23,281 nucleotides of DNA. It comes from a virus. The stretch is from positions 10,421 through 33,701 of the IMG/VR virus record IMGVR_UViG_3300030117_005263. One strand, written 5' to 3'. A program made the position numbers and the translations under genes. Positions 1 through 18,826 of the stretch are shown here, piece by piece. Each line of letters opens with the position of its first letter. Position 1 is the first letter of the stretch. The notes below the pieces were generated by a model. That model was not told the DNA's origin and searched no databases. It saw nothing but the letters and a program-made list of their open reading frames with translations.

Positions 1-1869
1 GATACATTGGTGTATGGTACAAACCCTGCTTTTGGTAATGACACATCACATGTATTTGCTTCTGATTCATGTCCACCTATATATGGATGTACAGATGATG
101 ATTATGTAGAGTGGAATCCATTTGCTGATGTAGACGATGGAAGTTGTCAAACTTTAAAAATATATGGATGTATAGATTCTACAATGTTTAATTATGATCC
201 AAATGCTAATACTATGGATATGATTGCAGATTGTGAGTTTACTTTAGTGTTGCATGATTTAATGGGTAATGGTTGGGTAGGTTCTCATTTAGTTTTGAAC
301 CATCCAGATAGTGTGTATCATTTTAACCATACAGGAGGCTTTAATGACGAATATCAAATAAACTTATCTGCACCCGCCCCTATGGAGTTTATATTTCATA
401 TATCTTCACAAGCAGCATTAACAACTATAGAATGTGGTTTTACATTTATAAACCCTGAAGGAGATACTTTAATAAGTATACAGCCACCTTTTATACAGCC
501 ATTATTTCCTTATGGTTTGGTTACAAATTGTGGTAACACTTGTGAAGAAAAAGTATATGGTTGTTTAGATTCTACAGCTATAAATTATTTTGAAGAAGCA
601 AACACAACAGATAGCAGTTGTTATTATAGTCCAGGTTGTACTAACTCAAGCTACTTAGAATACTATACACAAGGTTTTATAGCAGATTACGATGACGGTA
701 GTTGTGTAACACAGGCTATCTGGGGTTGTACTGACAGTAATGCTTTTAATTATGATGTTTCAGCAAATATTGATAACGGTGGTTGTGTGCAAATTATAAC
801 AGGCTGTATGCAGCCATTAGCATTTAATTACAATCCTAATGCTAATACTCCAGATACATGTATAGCTATTGTATATGGATGTATGAGCAGTATTGCTATA
901 AATTATAATCCATTAGCAAATACAGATGATGGTAGTTGTATAGGTGTTATATATGGATGTACAGACAGTACAATGTGGAATTTTATGCCAAGTGCAAATG
1001 TTGATGATAGTAGCTGTGTGCCTTACATTTATGGATGTACTGATGCAACTATGTTTAATTATTGTGATAGTTGTAATACAGACAATGGATCTTGCATACC
1101 GTTTGTTTATGGTTGTATGGATACGTCTGCATATAATTATGATCCTATTGCTAATACAGACAACGGAACATGTATTCCAGTAATATACGGTTGTACTAAT
1201 CCAATAGCTTTAAATTATTGTGATACATGTAATACAGATGACTTTAGCTGCATACTACCTATATATGGTTGCACCGATAGCACAATGTTTAATTATAATC
1301 CTTTAGCCAATGTTGATAATAATACTTGCATACCTTTTATCTATGGTTGTACTGACCCTAGCATGCTTAATTACAACCCACAAGCAAACACTGAAGATTT
1401 TAGTTGTATCGCTTATGTATATGGGTGTACCGATTCTACTGCTTTTAACTATAATCCACTGGCTAATACTGACAATGGTTCGTGTATCAGTATTGTGCAA
1501 GGATGTATGGATCTTAATGCGTACAACTATAATGAACTAGCTAATATAAATGATAGTTTGTCTTGTTTGTATGATGCAGGTTGCATAACGGGACCAGGTG
1601 TTCCTTATTGGCTAAACGACCCTTGTTATGCATGGGTTTTAGAAGTAGATGATTACTGTTGTGAAAACGAGTGGGACACAATATGTCAAGCTACGTATAA
1701 TCATTGTGTTGATGGTTGGGTTGGACCTATACCATTAAGAATGATAAATAAAGAATTAATAGGAATTACAGATTTATTAGGTAGACCTGTAAATAAAATA
1801 ACATATAATACGGTTTTATTCTTTATATATAACGATGGAACTGTAGAAAAAAAGAGTATAAAAAAATGA
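1..1869 (+). CDS. Cys-rich repeat surface protein with T9SS-like C-terminal tail (5' partial)
   Basis: The reading frame is open to the left edge, so the N-terminus is missing; 622 codons are visible. Seen: two Cys/Asn/Asp-rich repeat units, an insert of about 95 residues starting near EFTLVLHDLMGNGWVG, thirteen more units of about 26 residues (YGCTDSTAFNYNPLANTD type), and a Cys-rich block (CYAWVLEVDDYCC, then EWDTIC). The last ~37 residues contain ITDLLGRPV and then YNDGTVEKKSIKK. From family knowledge, such repeats, the GNGWVG-type domain and this ending occur in Bacteroidetes cell-surface proteins, where the tail directs export and anchoring by T9SS. Inferred: an adhesin or virion/host-surface protein. 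The next phage gene starts inside its stop codon (ATGA), so it belongs to the same operon. Exact function is unknown. A virion-attached fibre is an alternative to a secreted protein. Confidence 0.85.
   Translation, partial: DTLVYGTNPAFGNDTSHVFASDSCPPIYGCTDDDYVEWNPFADVDDGSCQTLKIYGCIDSTMFNYDPNANTMDMIADCEFTLVLHDLMGNGWVGSHLVLNHPDSVYHFNHTGGFNDEYQINLSAPAPMEFIFHISSQAALTTIECGFTFINPEGDTLISIQPPFIQPLFPYGLVTNCGNTCEEKVYGCLDSTAINYFEEANTTDSSCYYSPGCTNSSYLEYYTQGFIADYDDGSCVTQAIWGCTDSNAFNYDVSANIDNGGCVQIITGCMQPLAFNYNPNANTPDTCIAIVYGCMSSIAINYNPLANTDDGSCIGVIYGCTDSTMWNFMPSANVDDSSCVPYIYGCTDATMFNYCDSCNTDNGSCIPFVYGCMDTSAYNYDPIANTDNGTCIPVIYGCTNPIALNYCDTCNTDDFSCILPIYGCTDSTMFNYNPLANVDNNTCIPFIYGCTDPSMLNYNPQANTEDFSCIAYVYGCTDSTAFNYNPLANTDNGSCISIVQGCMDLNAYNYNELANINDSLSCLYDAGCITGPGVPYWLNDPCYAWVLEVDDYCCENEWDTICQATYNHCVDGWVGPIPLRMINKELIGITDLLGRPVNKITYNTVLFFIYNDGTVEKKSIKK
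79..1575 (+). repeat. Fifteen coding repeats of about 78 nt (YGC...NYNP.ANTDDGSC)
   Basis: Units 1-2 begin at 79 and about 157. Units 3-15 run almost head to tail from 553 to about 1575, after an inserted non-repeat domain. Each unit has an aromatic-Gly-Cys opening, a conserved N-Y/F, an Asn-Asp loop and a closing Cys. This suggests one disulfide per unit and possibly a cation-binding Asp/Asn loop (inference). Two units (near 1060 and 1216) replace NYNP with NYCD..CN, adding a second Cys pair. Units are diverged in DNA sequence, so this is an old array rather than a recent expansion. Confidence 0.9.
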
Positions 1870-2222
1870 GCATATTAACAACAATTGACGGAATACCATT
1901 GTATTCTTCTGTAGTAGAAGCCTTAACATGGGCAAATGATAATAATCAACAAGGATACCATACGCATGTTCATAATGGTATAACAGGTTATATGGGAGGA
2001 TATACTCATACAGGCGCAACAGCAAATGTAACAGCAGCAGTTGCAGAGCCTTTTGTAGATGTAGAACCAGAAGTTAGTGCACCTGTACAACCAGTTGCAC
2101 CAACAATTAATACACAACCAACTCCAAGTCCAACTCCAGCTGCTAGTCCAGCGCCACCAACACAAGCGCCAGTAGTAATGACACCTACAGGTGGAGGGCA
2201 AGGAACAGGAGGAGGTTATTAA
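1866..2222 (+). CDS. Small protein with HTHVHNG-type motif and Pro/Thr-rich tail
   Basis: 118 aa. The N-terminal ~50 residues form a compact unit with IDGIPLYSSVVEALTWA followed by GYHTHVHNGITGYMGG and YTHTG. The clustered histidines could bind metal or form a small beta fold. Residues ~60-105 are low-complexity Ala/Pro/Thr/Gln and the end is Gly-rich (GGGQGTGGGY), a layout typical of an exposed linker or tail on a virion protein. The ATG overlaps the upstream stop by 4 nt. I do not recognise a named family. A minor virion or fibre-associated protein is inferred from its place between the repeat protein and the holin. Confidence 0.8.
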   Translation: MSILTTIDGIPLYSSVVEALTWANDNNQQGYHTHVHNGITGYMGGYTHTGATANVTAAVAEPFVDVEPEVSAPVQPVAPTINTQPTPSPTPAASPAPPTQAPVVMTPTGGGQGTGGGY

Positions 2223-2231
2223 AATAAAATT

Positions 2232-2618
2232 ATGTTAGGAAATTTATTATCACAAGGAACAGCAGAATTAGTAAAAAATGTCGGTGGAGTTATAGACAAT
2301 TTACACACTTCTAAAGAAGAAAAATTAGAAGCTGAAAGAAAAATAAAAGATATGATTATGGGTTATGAAGCTGAAATGCAAAAGCAAGTAACTGAAAGAT
2401 GGAAGGTTGATATGGCTTCTGATTCTTGGCTATCAAAAAATATAAGACCACTAGTTTTAATATTTTTATGTGTGTCAACAGTATTATTAATATTTATAGA
2501 TGCAGGCGTTATATCATTTGAAGTTAAAGCGTCTTGGGTAGACCTGTTACAGTTAGTGTTAATTACTGTTATTGGTGCTTATTTTGGAGGTAGATCATTA
2601 GAGAAAGTTAAAAAATGA
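2232..2618 (+). CDS. Holin, GTA/3TM-type (lysis)
   Basis: 128 aa. A charged, helical N-terminal half (about residues 25-58) is followed by DSWLSKNIRPLVLIFL and two clear membrane segments (about 72-90 and 102-119), then a short basic tail (RSLEKVKK). The W-x-x-K/R-N-I/V-R-P signature before the first helix is characteristic of the phage/gene-transfer-agent 3TM holin family (PF11351 type). Role: forms inner-membrane lesions that time lysis. The DUF5675 candidate lysis gene lies 1.1 kb downstream in the same operon, separated by three small genes. Start ATG follows an A-rich leader; the gene ends in ATGA with the next start. Confidence 0.82.
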   Translation: MLGNLLSQGTAELVKNVGGVIDNLHTSKEEKLEAERKIKDMIMGYEAEMQKQVTERWKVDMASDSWLSKNIRPLVLIFLCVSTVLLIFIDAGVISFEVKASWVDLLQLVLITVIGAYFGGRSLEKVKK

Positions 2619-6083: not shown

Positions 6084-7367
6084 ATGTCTTTAAATGATCA
6101 AATTAGGGAATATCTTTTAGAAAACCCACACTTAATGCGTAGTAAATACGCAGACACAGCAAAAAAATTTGGAACTAATTATGAGCAGATAAGAACAGTA
6201 GCACGCGGATTGAGAAAAAGAAATCCTGATGTAGAACCAGGAGAAAAAGAAGTACTAAATTTCCAAGAAACAAAAAATAAAGCTGTAGTAACAGCAGAAA
6301 ATTGTACAAGAGTAAAATCTTTAGAAGATCTATTAGCAGCATGTCAAGTAGATTTAGATTTATGGGAAGTAGAAAAATACGATATAGGAACTTACGAGGT
6401 AACAGGTTTTGATAATGACAGAAAACCTATTACAGTTACTATGTTTAGAACTAAAGCTTTTTTAAAAAGAATTAAACCAGAAGTTAATTTAAAAAAAATA
6501 AAAGAAGAACTTATAGAAGACTTACGGAATTTATCTCCTTTAGTTGCAAAAAAAGATAGAAAAAGACCAGAAGACAGAAAGGATTTACATTTGCTAGAAA
6601 TATCAGCATTTGATTTGCATTTAGGTAAAATAGGTATAAAGAATGATAAATATAGTATTAAAATAGCTTATAAGCGTCTTTTAAGCGCCATAGAGCACCT
6701 TTTATATCGTTCGCAGGGTTATTATATAGATAAGATACTTTTTATTGTAGGGCAAGACTTATTAAACTCAGATGGTGATTGGCCTATACCAGCGACAACA
6801 AAAGGGACTCCGCAGTTTAACAGTAATTATCATATAGATATGTATCGTTCTGCTAGAAAATTAATGATAAAAGCTATAGATAGACTATCAGAAATAGCAG
6901 ACGTACACGTTATGGTCATACCAGGTAATCACGACAGAGAATCTGTTATGCATTTAGGTGATACATTAGAATTGTATTATGAAAACAATGAAAATGTAAA
7001 AGTAGATAATAGTGATTGTTTGATGAAGGCATTACCTTATGGTAACAATTTAATAATATCTGATCATGGTGATGGTCCTAAAACAAATGATTTGCCAGGT
7101 ATTATATCACAAAGATTTAAAAATTTATGGAGTAATGTAGACTATGTTGAAGTACATAGGGGTCATTATCATACTAATAAAGCCACTAAGTTACAGGCCA
7201 TAGAAGAACTAAACGGTATAACTGTTAGAAATTTATCCTCTATGTCTGCAACTGATTATTGGCATGATAGCAAAGGCTTTATAGGTAACATTAAAAAAGC
7301 ACAAGCTTTTATATATAGTAGAAGAAATGGTTTGCAAGGTATATTAAACTACAACGTTACCGTTTAA
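6084..7367 (+). CDS. Metallophosphoesterase with N-terminal HTH-like segment
   Basis: 427 aa. Calcineurin-like motifs appear in order: FDLHLG (D177, H179), VGQDLLNSDGD (~222-232; GQD in place of the usual GD), IPGNHDRE (~279-286), ISDHGDG (~325-331) and HRGHYHT (~358-364). These would bind a two-metal centre that hydrolyses phosphoesters. The substrate could be nucleic acid or a nucleotide. Residues ~1-47 (SKYADTAKKFGTNYEQIRTVARGLRKR) look like a DNA-binding helix-turn-helix, suggesting a DNA-directed enzyme. It is the last gene of the plus-strand operon, 11 nt after its neighbour. Its 3' end overlaps a short antisense ORF. Confidence 0.88.
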   Translation: MSLNDQIREYLLENPHLMRSKYADTAKKFGTNYEQIRTVARGLRKRNPDVEPGEKEVLNFQETKNKAVVTAENCTRVKSLEDLLAACQVDLDLWEVEKYDIGTYEVTGFDNDRKPITVTMFRTKAFLKRIKPEVNLKKIKEELIEDLRNLSPLVAKKDRKRPEDRKDLHLLEISAFDLHLGKIGIKNDKYSIKIAYKRLLSAIEHLLYRSQGYYIDKILFIVGQDLLNSDGDWPIPATTKGTPQFNSNYHIDMYRSARKLMIKAIDRLSEIADVHVMVIPGNHDRESVMHLGDTLELYYENNENVKVDNSDCLMKALPYGNNLIISDHGDGPKTNDLPGIISQRFKNLWSNVDYVEVHRGHYHTNKATKLQAIEELNGITVRNLSSMSATDYWHDSKGFIGNIKKAQAFIYSRRNGLQGILNYNVTV

Positions 7368-7644: not shown

Positions 7645-8508
7645 TTAAAATATATATCTAATTGTATTCCAAGGAATAATTTTATTATGTAAATTTACAA
7701 AATCTTTTATATATTCCTTTTTAAGTTTGTAATTATATCTAATATTTTTACCACCATACTGTGATGTTTTAGATTCTTGCACGTTAGGTGTCCATAAATC
7801 TTTTTCTGCTATAGGGTTATTTTTATTATTAACCAAATGCCTAGACTCGTTGTGTGTTAGAAATATAACTTCCGACAGAACGTTTGCATGTATGGCCGAA
7901 TCAACGTAGTCATTAAGCATTTGGAATAATCTATAATAATCGTTAAGCCAACCATCATAAACTATTACAGGACTAAAATTTACATGAACATCGTATCCTG
8001 CTTTTACATATACATTGATAGCTTTGATACGATCTATAATTTTAGATGTATTAGGCTCGTGTATATCTGCTTTAGATTGTGGCATTAAGCTAAACCTAAT
8101 TCTAATTTTACCATTAGGATTGAAAAATATAAAATCAGGATTTACATATTTAGTAGCAAAACTACCCATAGCAACAGGATGATTTTTAAAAAATGTAAAT
8201 ATTTTTTCCCATTCGTGATATTTAGCGTGTAGTGAAAAATCCTCATTACAGCTTATGTCATATGTTATGTACTCTTTATGTGTTTGATTTGGCTTATCTA
8301 CTTCGGCAAACATAACATGACTATTTATTTCAGTAAGTATATCTTCTGTATTAGTGGCTATATCTAAGCCATTTGGTCTGTGTCGTTTCATATAACAATA
8401 AGAACAGTTATACAAACAACCATAACCAAAACTAGGAGATATAAAGTCTGTAGATCTACCAGATGGTCTTATCTTAAATGTCTTTCTCTTTATTTTCTTT
8501 ACTTTCAT
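7645..8508 (-). CDS. Spore photoproduct lyase-like radical SAM protein
   Basis: 287 aa. The radical SAM [4Fe-4S] motif is C31-x3-C35-x2-C38 in FGYGCLYNCSYCYMKRH. Further blocks match the SPL (SplB) family: SFATKYVNPDF (like RTKS-N-D), IRFSLMPQ, RIKAINVYVKAGYDVHVNFS and PVIVYDGWLNDYYRLF. Family role: uses S-adenosylmethionine to reverse UV-induced thymine lesions by radical chemistry. In a non-spore phage it may repair UV damage or act on another DNA adduct (inference). Its start lies 35 nt inside the upstream DUF3310 gene. Somewhat shorter than bacterial SPL (about 340 aa). Confidence 0.85.
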   Translation of the reverse strand: MKVKKIKRKTFKIRPSGRSTDFISPSFGYGCLYNCSYCYMKRHRPNGLDIATNTEDILTEINSHVMFAEVDKPNQTHKEYITYDISCNEDFSLHAKYHEWEKIFTFFKNHPVAMGSFATKYVNPDFIFFNPNGKIRIRFSLMPQSKADIHEPNTSKIIDRIKAINVYVKAGYDVHVNFSPVIVYDGWLNDYYRLFQMLNDYVDSAIHANVLSEVIFLTHNESRHLVNNKNNPIAEKDLWTPNVQESKTSQYGGKNIRYNYKLKKEYIKDFVNLHNKIIPWNTIRYIF

Positions 8509-9165: not shown

Positions 9166-9857
9166 TTTTTATTCTTGTTTAATTTATTGTGTATGTTTTC
9201 TGCTATTGTATCGTAAACTATAAGATATGTAGGATCAGATTTGATAATGTTATTATCTTTATACTCTCCTTTAGTTCCGTATATACTATTTTCAATAGTA
9301 AAATTATCTGTTATACTTTTTATAATTTTAATAGTTTTACTTGTAAGATTTTTAGATTTATTACCATATCTTGATCCAGATATAACATAAGATATTTTTA
9401 CTTTGTTGTTATTTTTTACAGTTTGATACATAGATATATAATCATTATTTTTATTTAATATTGTATCTAATTTTTCCCATTCTTTTAGTATTTCAAAATA
9501 ATGTTTTTTTGTATAAGGATCTAACTGTGGCAATATAGCGTAACCTCTTAAATATATTGCATCTATTTTTAAATCCTTATTATATCTATATTCATTATGA
9601 CCATCAGGACGATAATAAATTTTATCAAACTCAAATTCTTCTTTATCTGTAAATTTGTATTTTATAAATATTTCTCCTTGTAAATTAGAGTTTTGTTTTG
9701 GCCTGCAAACCAAATAAACAGACTCAATATTATTATTGTTAATTCTTATATATCCTGTTTTGTCTTGTGTTACTTCAAAGTTAAATTCCTGATTTATATT
9801 ATCAGGAACTAACTTTAGTAAGTATTTTATAAAATTATCTTTATATTTTGGATTCAT
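9162..9857 (-). CDS. Hypothetical protein, 231 aa
   Basis: Lys/Asn/Tyr/Ile-rich. The N-terminal two-thirds alternates short strands and charged turns (FIKYKFTDKEEFEFDKIYYR). A helical segment follows (KHYFEILKEWEKLDTILNKN), then a C-terminal part with SYVISGSRYGNKSKNLTS. No family was recognised and no membrane segment is visible. It is ATGA-coupled on both sides, between the exonuclease and the 130-aa gene, so it is probably co-expressed with recombination functions. Confidence 0.72.
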   Translation of the reverse strand: MNPKYKDNFIKYLLKLVPDNINQEFNFEVTQDKTGYIRINNNNIESVYLVCRPKQNSNLQGEIFIKYKFTDKEEFEFDKIYYRPDGHNEYRYNKDLKIDAIYLRGYAILPQLDPYTKKHYFEILKEWEKLDTILNKNNDYISMYQTVKNNNKVKISYVISGSRYGNKSKNLTSKTIKIIKSITDNFTIENSIYGTKGEYKDNNIIKSDPTYLIVYDTIAENIHNKLNKNKK

Positions 9858-10675
9858 AATATGTCATCATTCATTATGTGTATAATTCTTTCAGATGTTT
9901 TATCTGTATAGTCATATCCTTGGGTAGGCCAATAATTGTTTTCTTTACAATATTTATATATTTCTAAATCATTATTGTACATTTCTCTACCTTTGTCTAG
10001 CAAATCATGACCTATCTGTATTATGTTAATGCTATAAGGTGGATTTTTTTCTACAGCTACAATGTAAAATTCTGTTGCTTTTATAGCATCCATATAGAAA
10101 GCAGCTTGTTTATAGTATTTAAACTTTTTCATAGATTTAGAAAAACCATAATATGAGCTATCTTGTGTGGTTTTAAGATCTACTATATAGTTGTGACCTA
10201 AAATATCATCTCTTCTATAAACATCTAGCATGCCTTTACATTTAATATCATATTCTTCATTATTCCACGCTATTATATGTTCTTTAGTGCCTTGAGTAAG
10301 CATTAGATTAGCATCTTCATCATTTCTAAGTTTATCAGTTATTTGTGTTATTTGCAAATATTCTTCTTCTGTTATAACTGTTTTAAACATATTATTGTTT
10401 ATAAATTCTGCATAATCTGCCTTACCTTGTTTAGTTCTTTTATCAAATTTTGGTGAAACTATATAATGCTTACTAAATTCTTCTGGTTGTAATACATTCA
10501 TATGTAATGCTGATCCAAATTTCATAGAAGCTGTAGGTGGTTGTGGATTATCCATTATAAACCTAAAGTATTCTGGTGATTTACCAGATAAATTATTCAG
10601 CATACTGTTAGATACATATTCATTATCAGTATAGTATGTGTCGTGAGTCAAGTTGTGATTTTCTATTAATTGCAT
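9854..10675 (-). CDS. PD-(D/E)XK exonuclease, RecE/Cas4-like
   Basis: 273 aa from ATG 10675; an upstream in-frame TTG would only add a non-conserved stretch overlapping a hairpin. Motifs: SNSMLNNLSGKSPEYFRF, FGSALH (residues ~53-58), GMLDVY (D151), YIVDLKTT (D166, K168) and KQAAFYMDA (Q-x-x-x-Y, ~189-196). This is the full active-site order of the phage RecE-like/DUF3799 PD-(D/E)XK nucleases. Role: resects double-stranded DNA 5'-3' to supply single strands to an annealing protein; the Rad52-family gene upstream is the expected partner. Ends in ATGA with the next gene. Confidence 0.85.
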   Translation of the reverse strand: MQLIENHNLTHDTYYTDNEYVSNSMLNNLSGKSPEYFRFIMDNPQPPTASMKFGSALHMNVLQPEEFSKHYIVSPKFDKRTKQGKADYAEFINNNMFKTVITEEEYLQITQITDKLRNDEDANLMLTQGTKEHIIAWNNEEYDIKCKGMLDVYRRDDILGHNYIVDLKTTQDSSYYGFSKSMKKFKYYKQAAFYMDAIKATEFYIVAVEKNPPYSINIIQIGHDLLDKGREMYNNDLEIYKYCKENNYWPTQGYDYTDKTSERIIHIMNDDIL

Positions 10676-17901: not shown

Positions 17902-18573
17902 TTAAATTGTTATTTGTTGTTTTACACCCCACTCTATAGGCTGTTCTAATTTTTCATTAATTTTCTTAAAATGTCCACATGTAAAGAAGCCAGCCTTACC
18001 ACCAGAGTAGGCCTCTGCGGCAGGATGAGGAGCTCTAAGTATAGTATGTCCATTTGGATACATAATATGCTTTTCATAGTCTTGTGCTTTCTTACCCCAC
18101 AAGACCCATATTAGATCTGGTTTATATATAGAAAGACTAGTTATAAGATCTCTTGTAAATGGCATCCACAAATCTATGTGTGATCCAGCCTTACCTTTCT
18201 CTACAGTTAAAGCGGTATTTAATAATAATACGCCTTGTCTTGCCCAGCTTTCTAGATTTGGATTTACATATACATCTCCAAAATCATTTTTAACTGTCTG
18301 TATTATGTTGCGCAAACTAGGACTAACTCTACCACCATTATTTGCAAATGCTAATCCTGTTGCGCTACCATCATGATATGGATCTTGTCCAAGTATAACA
18401 ACTTTTAAAGATTTTAGAGGACACATTTTGAAAGCCCTAAATGTTTTACCTTTTTCTGGATAAACCGTAGACTTAGTTGTGTTCTTCTTGTGTTGATCAG
18501 TTAATTTTTTAAAGTTTTCTGATTGAAATACGATACCTAATATTTTGTACCAGTCTCCTAGCATATTATACAT
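17902..18573 (-). CDS. ung: Uracil-DNA glycosylase, family 1
   Basis: 223 aa with ATG 18573, close to E. coli Ung (229 aa). ATG 18618 is an alternative, but 18573 gives a short overlap (8 nt) with the upstream gene and an A-rich leader. Motifs: VVILGQDPYHDG (~58-69; catalytic Asp in GQDPYH), GVLLLNTALTVEKGKAGSH (~114-132), LIWVLWGKKAQ (~154-164) and the Leu/His loop region HPAAEAYSGGKAGFFTCGHF (~183-202; usually HPSP). Role: removes uracil from DNA. For a phage this implies uracil-free DNA and repair of cytosine deamination. It pairs functionally with the SPL-like enzyme. Confidence 0.92.
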   Translation of the reverse strand: MYNMLGDWYKILGIVFQSENFKKLTDQHKKNTTKSTVYPEKGKTFRAFKMCPLKSLKVVILGQDPYHDGSATGLAFANNGGRVSPSLRNIIQTVKNDFGDVYVNPNLESWARQGVLLLNTALTVEKGKAGSHIDLWMPFTRDLITSLSIYKPDLIWVLWGKKAQDYEKHIMYPNGHTILRAPHPAAEAYSGGKAGFFTCGHFKKINEKLEQPIEWGVKQQITI

Positions 18574-18826
18574 TTGATTTGCTTTTGTAAGTTGTTCTAT
18601 TCTTTTTAGAGTCAACATGTGAAACACTTTTAAGAGTCCACAGTGCTGTTTCTTCTTTTACAGTTTTGTAGCATTCTTTTATAAGCTCTTTTCTTTGCTC
18701 TTCAATAGGTCTTGTAGGATCTACAGTAATACTTTGACCGTAATTAATTTTAATAGCCTCAAAGTTACCTATGTTAACAGTTTTGCTAACATTAAATGAT
18801 ATAGTTGTTGTTTCCATTTTGCTCAT
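18566..18826 (-). CDS. Small conserved phage protein of unknown function
   Basis: 86 aa. Starts MSKMETTTISFNVSKTVNIG, then NFEAIKINYGQSITVD and a charged helix with PIEEQRKELIKECYKTVKEE. The V-S-K-T-V...N-F-E-(A/S)-I/V-K beginning is a recurrent motif in small phage proteins of unknown role. ATGA overlap with the upstream gene and an 8-nt overlap with ung. Possibly a nucleic-acid-binding beta-helix protein (inference). Confidence 0.72.
   Translation of the reverse strand: MSKMETTTISFNVSKTVNIGNFEAIKINYGQSITVDPTRPIEEQRKELIKECYKTVKEETALWTLKSVSHVDSKKNRTTYKSKSNV

Follow-up and report, generated by a model that had tools for sequence, protein, structure and literature searches.

The viral DNA analyzed here encodes a cysteine-rich surface protein that is very likely exported in the T9SS manner, as a phage-encoded cargo of the host type IX secretion system (T9SS). 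Export is inferred, and on the same inference the infected bacterium very probably ships the viral protein to its surface. What follows refers to the window, i.e. the whole stretch of 23,281 nucleotides that was analyzed, corresponding to bases 10421-33701 of a 33,701-base IMG/VR virus record.

At the very start of the window, frame +1 runs without interruption from base 1 to a stop codon at 1867-1869 and gives 622 amino acids, 44 of them cysteines. The gene is incomplete within the window: a scaffold gap of 10 N (contig 10411-10420) lies directly before window base 1, and the 5' part of the gene is found on the other side of it, at contig 9843-10410, where it begins with MKNIFLTILLLPLFVFGQ, a typical Sec signal peptide. 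An unbroken copy of the gene, encoding 836 amino acids counted from the ATG, is present as L004 in the longer contig G001; the contig of L004 is 97% identical to the window over the first 7.35 kb. The scaffold gap thus splits a phage gene, of which window 1-1869 is the 3' part. The features of the gene and its surroundings are as follows.

Contig 9843-10410, upstream of the window and before the gap: signal peptide and first domains of the surface protein.
1-1869, plus strand: phage surface protein, 3' part (622 of about 836 amino acids), from the open frame, the scaffold gap, the intact L004 and about 119 viral contigs with relatives.
79-234, plus strand: first YGCTD-type cysteine repeats, from sequence and pattern count.
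235-540, plus strand: beta-rich inserted domain with MGNGWVG, from the AF2 model of L004 (pLDDT about 70-88), which has strands at the corresponding residues.
556-1569, plus strand: main array of YGCTD-type cysteine repeats, from pattern count; low AF2 confidence.
1564-1713, plus strand: cysteine module CLYDAGCITG..PYWLNDPCYAWV..DDYCCENEWDTICQATYNHC, from alignment; helical in the AF2 model.
1738-1866, plus strand: putative short C-terminal sorting tag RMINKELIGITDLLGRPVNKITYNTVLFFIYNDGTVEKKSIKK, from tail alignments, matches in the host order and TIGR04183 in its place in sister phages.
1866-2222, plus strand: following gene of 118 amino acids with no function assigned (cluster 23, in 15 loci); its start overlaps the stop of the surface protein (ATGA).
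2232-2618, plus strand: holin (phrog_3427, E = 1.1e-31).

The elements in which the original prediction had recognized the layout of a T9SS substrate, namely the YGCTD repeats, the MGNGWVG insert, the CCENEWDTIC block and the C-terminal DLLGRPVNKITYNTVLFFIYNDGTVEKKSIKK with its DLLGRPV-type end, are all present as described, and so is the ATGA at 1866-1869 in which the stop codon overlaps the next start. A fixed pattern finds 12 YGCTD-type repeats in all, compared with at most 1 in 1000 shuffles, and the cysteine module has 24 invariant columns across 18 aligned phage proteins. Since Tandem Repeats Finder found no repeats at the DNA level, the cysteine repeats are conserved only as protein. 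Besides these repeats the body of the protein contains beta-sandwich domains with YDSYGDG motifs. The curated models (NCBIfam, Pfam and PHROGs) gave nothing usable for the window protein, and a Foldseek search with the full-length model returned just weak matches with low TM-scores, which were not used for function.

The viral origin of the gene is supported by its surroundings and by its distribution. Close to the surface protein the window encodes the holin (phrog_3427), two exonucleases, an Erf-like annealing protein and a DnaB-like helicase. Contig G001, which is 95-98% identical to most of the window, carries a capsid gene matching Crass_capsid in Pfam (E = 2.8e-34), a P22-like portal, a terminase and CrAss_Ring_2, so that crAss-type capsid, portal, terminase and ring protein are all in place and G001 is, as judged from marker genes and without a phylogeny, a crAss-like phage. 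Named phages related through the G001 terminase are mostly Flavobacterium, Bacteroides and Cellulophaga phages, together with uncultured gut phages. Because of these capsid, portal and ring genes and the terminase relatives, the window phage most likely belongs to the marine crAss-like phages and infects Bacteroidota, with the host being inferred.

The last 99 residues of the surface protein have 214 relatives in IMG/VR contigs, and the frame is therefore not a chance one. When two viral scans are combined, the family is found on about 119 distinct viral contigs (a hand count of contig names). A terminase family is common to 43 of the 44 viral records tested and falls in about three score groups, and a crAss capsid could be detected in ten of the 44, from which we conclude that the gene is spread across several phage lineages. 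It is hardly conceivable that a bacterial fragment was misplaced in a viral contig, as could be supposed from the host-like signal peptide and tail: the terminase family is shared as described, gene and neighbouring cassette (see below) are conserved in about 119 viral contigs, and the scan that gave the 214 viral relatives, applied identically to 84,980 species genomes, produced two relatives only, one of them on a phage contig. A host-gene artefact is ruled out by synteny and terminase content, and the original claim of a phage context, made from the gene overlap alone, is now upheld by the downstream holin, the crAss-type genes of G001 and the number of viral contigs.

Some further observations were made along these genomes. 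Two phage contigs, of 43 kb (G015:C32; L235-L237, NZWA01000061.1) and 56 kb (G384:C16; L238-L240), lie inside species-representative bacterial genomes. Upstream of the window, L002:3-6311 is an open reading frame of at least 2102 amino acids containing GADLDGDSVHMNF, which to the eye looks like the catalytic motif of an RNA polymerase; no family match was obtained for it with NCBIfam, Pfam or PHROGs. It is followed by two adjoining similar genes of about 124 amino acids (L002:6344-6718 and 6740-7111, cluster 20) with no function assigned. On the minus strand of the window, positions 7645-8508 encode a CxxxCxxC in GYGCLYNCSYCYMKRH, radical-SAM-like by eye and phage-encoded, and positions 17902-18627 encode GQDPYH, by eye a uracil-DNA-glycosylase-like motif in a PHROG family of unknown function.

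Proteins that combine a Sec signal with a C-terminal T9SS domain (CTD) go to the cell surface or to the medium (PMC12618676), and a T9SS substrate should accordingly show an N-terminal Sec signal peptide and a conserved sorting domain at its extreme C-terminus. As predicted from sequence the first of these is present: MKNIFLTILLLPLFVFGQ, which was located upstream of the gap where the original prediction had proposed to look for a signal peptide, is conserved in the relatives. Signal peptides were scored with a crude rule and by eye, not with SignalP. The scorer recognized one in 68 of the 73 relatives with a complete 5' end; among the five misses three plainly have a signal peptide when inspected by eye, and two are truncated reading frames.

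The signal peptide also bears on the question of whether the protein could be a virion component, either a fibre or a decoration, whose cysteine repeats bind the host and whose ends resemble host exoproteins only by descent. The gene is indeed near late genes, and the same type of repeat occurs in gp232 of cyanophage S-CAM3, which is annotated as virion structural and is encoded beside a tail collar gene. However, neither gp232 nor the corresponding protein of AG-345-P14 has a signal peptide or a sorting tail, and a Sec signal peptide in nearly all relatives would remove the protein from the cytoplasm, where virions assemble. Moreover, the tail is conserved, and where it is missing it has been replaced by another sorting domain instead of being lost (see below). 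We consider a virion component quite unlikely and prefer export by the host T9SS.

The C-terminal end of the viral proteins has the consensus KKLxxITDLLGRPxKxxKNxLLFYIYxDGTVEKKxIK (about 40 residues), and in the viral loci this short tail occurs on the surface protein only. It is not detected by the type A sorting domain model TIGR04183, for which the curated cut-off is 23 bits. None of 15 virus records had a short tail scoring over the cut-off, and the same search gave approximately 50 matches in each of two Flavobacteriales genomes. The window protein and its short-tail relatives all remain below the cut-off, so the check that had been suggested on the window C-terminus turned out negative, and for this reason we do not count the window protein among the type A members. 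For the type B domain TIGR04131 the window protein had no NCBIfam match at E <= 1. Nor is the seven-stranded Ig-like fold of a type A domain met, as the model has three strands in the last 40 residues, with moderate confidence. TIGR04183 also stayed below the cut-off in a faecal contig and in seven cultured relatives (crAss001, DAC15, Flavobacterium elemoA, Fpv20, FPSV-D25, Cellulophaga phi46:3 and phi19:3), so that these provide no isolate suited to laboratory work.

A profile built from the viral tail matches 110 of 398 genomes of the order Flavobacteriales (best E 4e-21), with at least 18 matches per genome in many of them, compared with 2 of 297 genomes in a phylum-wide sample, one of the two being the genome on which the sample was centred. 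The host proteins carrying the tail are unrelated to one another and to the phage protein, and include chitinase-like, PHB-depolymerase-like, ResA-like and leucine-rich repeat proteins. Only 0-3 residues separate the tail from the stop codon in 76 of the 83 viral matches and in 73 of the 77 host matches. With the crude scorer a signal peptide is found in 52 of 61 complete tail-bearing host reading frames as against 40 of 120 other reading frames from the same stretches (p = 1.4e-11). Judged by sequence, the short tail is a C-terminal tag that belongs to the host lineage, where it sits on many unrelated secreted proteins, and the putative sorting domain at the extreme C-terminus of a T9SS substrate is likewise in place. 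Ten tail-positive genomes were tested for T9SS genes; all contained the sortase PorU and eight contained SprA, and its absence from the other two may merely reflect incomplete genomes.

When the profile of the short tail was compared with that of 20 canonical type A tails, it aligned to their C-terminal part (P = 7.8e-5), and none of 200 column-shuffled controls reached the score. The HHalign probability is only 61%, and the profile comparison alone is therefore no proof, but it suggests that the short tail is related to the type A sorting domain and has been shortened.

The best evidence that the short tail does the same job as TIGR04183 comes from loci brought in by a scan with the neighbouring barrel protein, because here closely similar proteins carry either tail, one of which is a curated T9SS signal. 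Eight viral proteins (L264, L278, L287, L301, L315, L319, L320 and L332) keep the body and the cysteine module and end in TIGR04183, with scores of 31.1-42.4 bits against the cut-off of 23. One of them, L278, is 84.7% identical over 804 residues to L034, which has the short tail, and the two diverge after the cysteine module. Independently of these, the 43-kb contig G015:C32, which had been placed in the bin of a Flavobacteriales MAG, is a myophage with tail sheath, tube, baseplate hub and DNA polymerase; it carries the cassette and a surface-protein homologue ending in TIGR04183 (53.6 bits). Very probably the window protein works like a TIGR04183 member without being one. The central claim of the original prediction, that a phage gene encodes a protein built like a T9SS substrate, is thus supported by the signal peptide, the host-type tag and the presence of TIGR04183 in sister phages.

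It could still be argued that the short tail serves for sorting or anchoring by another, unrecognized pathway and has nothing to do with the T9SS. The failure of TIGR04183 to detect the tail is consistent with this, as is its restriction to one lineage (110/398 genomes of the order, 2/297 in the phylum sample), the T9SS being far wider. Against it, a true T9SS domain occupies the same place on a near-identical sister phage protein, the profile of the short tail is similar to that of type A tails, and the tested tail carriers do have T9SS genes; we find another pathway unlikely. For the T9SS as the preferred route some points remain unfavourable: the tail is only about 40 amino acids, roughly 100 being usual for type A CTDs (PMC12618676), and is missed by TIGR04183, SprA was not found in 2 of the 10 tail-positive genomes, and recognition of the short tail by the T9SS has, as far as the literature was found, not been shown in any organism.

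The surface protein is encoded in a cassette with three partners. Of the 60 viral loci that extend 4 kb or more upstream, 59 have a gene for a barrel protein (about 360 amino acids), 59 a gene for a Sec-exported thioredoxin-fold protein, and 50 a gene for a single-TM coiled-coil protein of about 93 amino acids; some partners absent from these counts were displaced in gene picking by overlapping antisense reading frames. The genes for TM, thioredoxin and surface protein follow one another in this order, and the barrel gene stands either before or after the three; in some loci other genes are interposed. Conversely, the surface protein is present in all 37 barrel loci with long flanks; its tail is the short one in 32 and canonical in 5. 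AF2 predicts the barrel to be an outer-membrane beta-barrel (pLDDT 72), and Foldseek matches it to porins and autotransporter barrels (best E 3.6e-7, low TM-scores). Genes for type B substrates often neighbour a gene for a barrel shuttle protein (PMC12618676), and on the strength of this model and of synteny an outer-membrane beta-barrel fold beside a putative T9SS substrate gene is also found here. Identity of the barrel with PorP/SprF is not supported, as L002:8007-9104 gives only a chance-level match to another family.

Upstream of the window, the thioredoxin-fold partner (L002:9479-9841; cluster 3, 67 loci) has a strongly conserved C-terminus (MSDF). Since CxxC is found in none of the 67 members, a redox enzyme is unlikely. 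The small membrane protein (L002:9198-9479; cluster 4, 56 loci) has a single TM and a periplasmic coiled coil, and one member gave a weak PHROG match to an Rz-like spanin family (E = 0.007). In a divergent phage contig (G384:C16) the three partners are retained and the surface protein is absent, which leaves room for a further function of the cassette.

From these observations we infer that Sec would carry the surface protein across the inner membrane and that the host T9SS would take it by its tail, so that it ends on the surface of the infected cell or in the medium, presumably late in infection as judged from the late-gene neighbours. A weaker inference is that it may act with the barrel, the periplasmic thioredoxin-fold protein and the small membrane protein to alter the cell surface. 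The purpose can only be guessed from the architecture. Our favoured guess, put forward tentatively, is a masking of receptors that would shut out rival phages or keep new virions from re-adsorbing. Close to it, and likewise doubtful, is that T9SS export is right and the purpose is adhesion or the capture of nutrients or particles, a sticky cell or bound glycans aiding the spread of progeny instead of excluding phages. The adhesin-like body of cysteine repeats and beta-sandwich domains with YDSYGDG would fit adhesion, and several host T9SS substrates are adhesins (PMC12618676); no carbohydrate-binding family was recognized in the surface protein, however, and the present data do not separate adhesion from masking.

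In its widest form the proposal is a display module of marine crAss-like and other Bacteroidota phages, in which a T9SS-tagged cysteine-repeat protein would be served by the phages' own barrel as shuttle or anchor and by a periplasmic thioredoxin-fold helper, the tag being exchanged to match the host lineage and the short tag representing an unannotated T9SS class. This we regard as possible, and no more. If phages do add protein to the exterior of Bacteroidota cells through the T9SS, what had been two passing remarks in the literature becomes a widespread conserved trait. The tail swap and the short tag, which many proteins of a single host genome carry, suggest that marine Flavobacteriales have T9SS signals of a class not yet annotated, in which case TIGR04183 would count their secretomes too low. 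The phage trait also gives a testable handle on the effects of crAss-like phages on the host surface late in infection.

The two remarks concern other phages. For Cryophage, phage-encoded T9SS cargo was described in 2020 as a unique occurrence, hijacking of the host system was proposed, and superinfection exclusion was among the authors' suggestions (PMC7468147); a T9SS domain on a crAss-like BACON ORF had been pointed out in 2019, the authors leaving its meaning open (PMC6949934). The use of the T9SS by a phage, which the original prediction held to be unusual, is in this respect less unprecedented than claimed. The Cryophage proteins resemble ours in having a T9SS sorting domain and a proposed surface or secreted location, but they are three enzyme-like or PA14 cargos with recognized type A domains, from one phage and variable between its variants, whereas the window family is one conserved cysteine-repeat family from many marine phages, with a tail mostly unseen by the type A model and with a barrel partner. 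The phages of PMC6949934 are similarly crAss-like with T9SS sorting domains, but the protein bodies and contigs are others.

With the type A CTD (TIGR04183 / PF18962) the short tail shares the C-terminal position, the occurrence on Sec-exported proteins and an aligned LGR and terminal Lys-rich strand region, and it differs in its length of about 40 amino acids, in lacking the YPNP start and the GxY motif, and in being undetected by the model. As in type B substrates with PorP/SprF barrels (PMC12618676), the surface protein is encoded beside an outer-membrane barrel, but the phage barrel has no PorP/SprF model match and the tail of the cargo is not type B. The cyanophage proteins with YGCTD repeats (S-CAM3 gp232 and that of marine virus AG-345-P14) have the same type of cysteine repeat; they come from phages classed as Kyanoviridae and lack signal peptide and sorting tail. 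Both (L244 and L245) have a C-terminal end of their own, common to the two. Among open-licence papers we came across none that described the short tail, this phage family or the partnership with a barrel, and as far as found it is the cysteine-repeat family, the unmodelled short tag, the tail swap and the barrel partner that set the present system apart as new.
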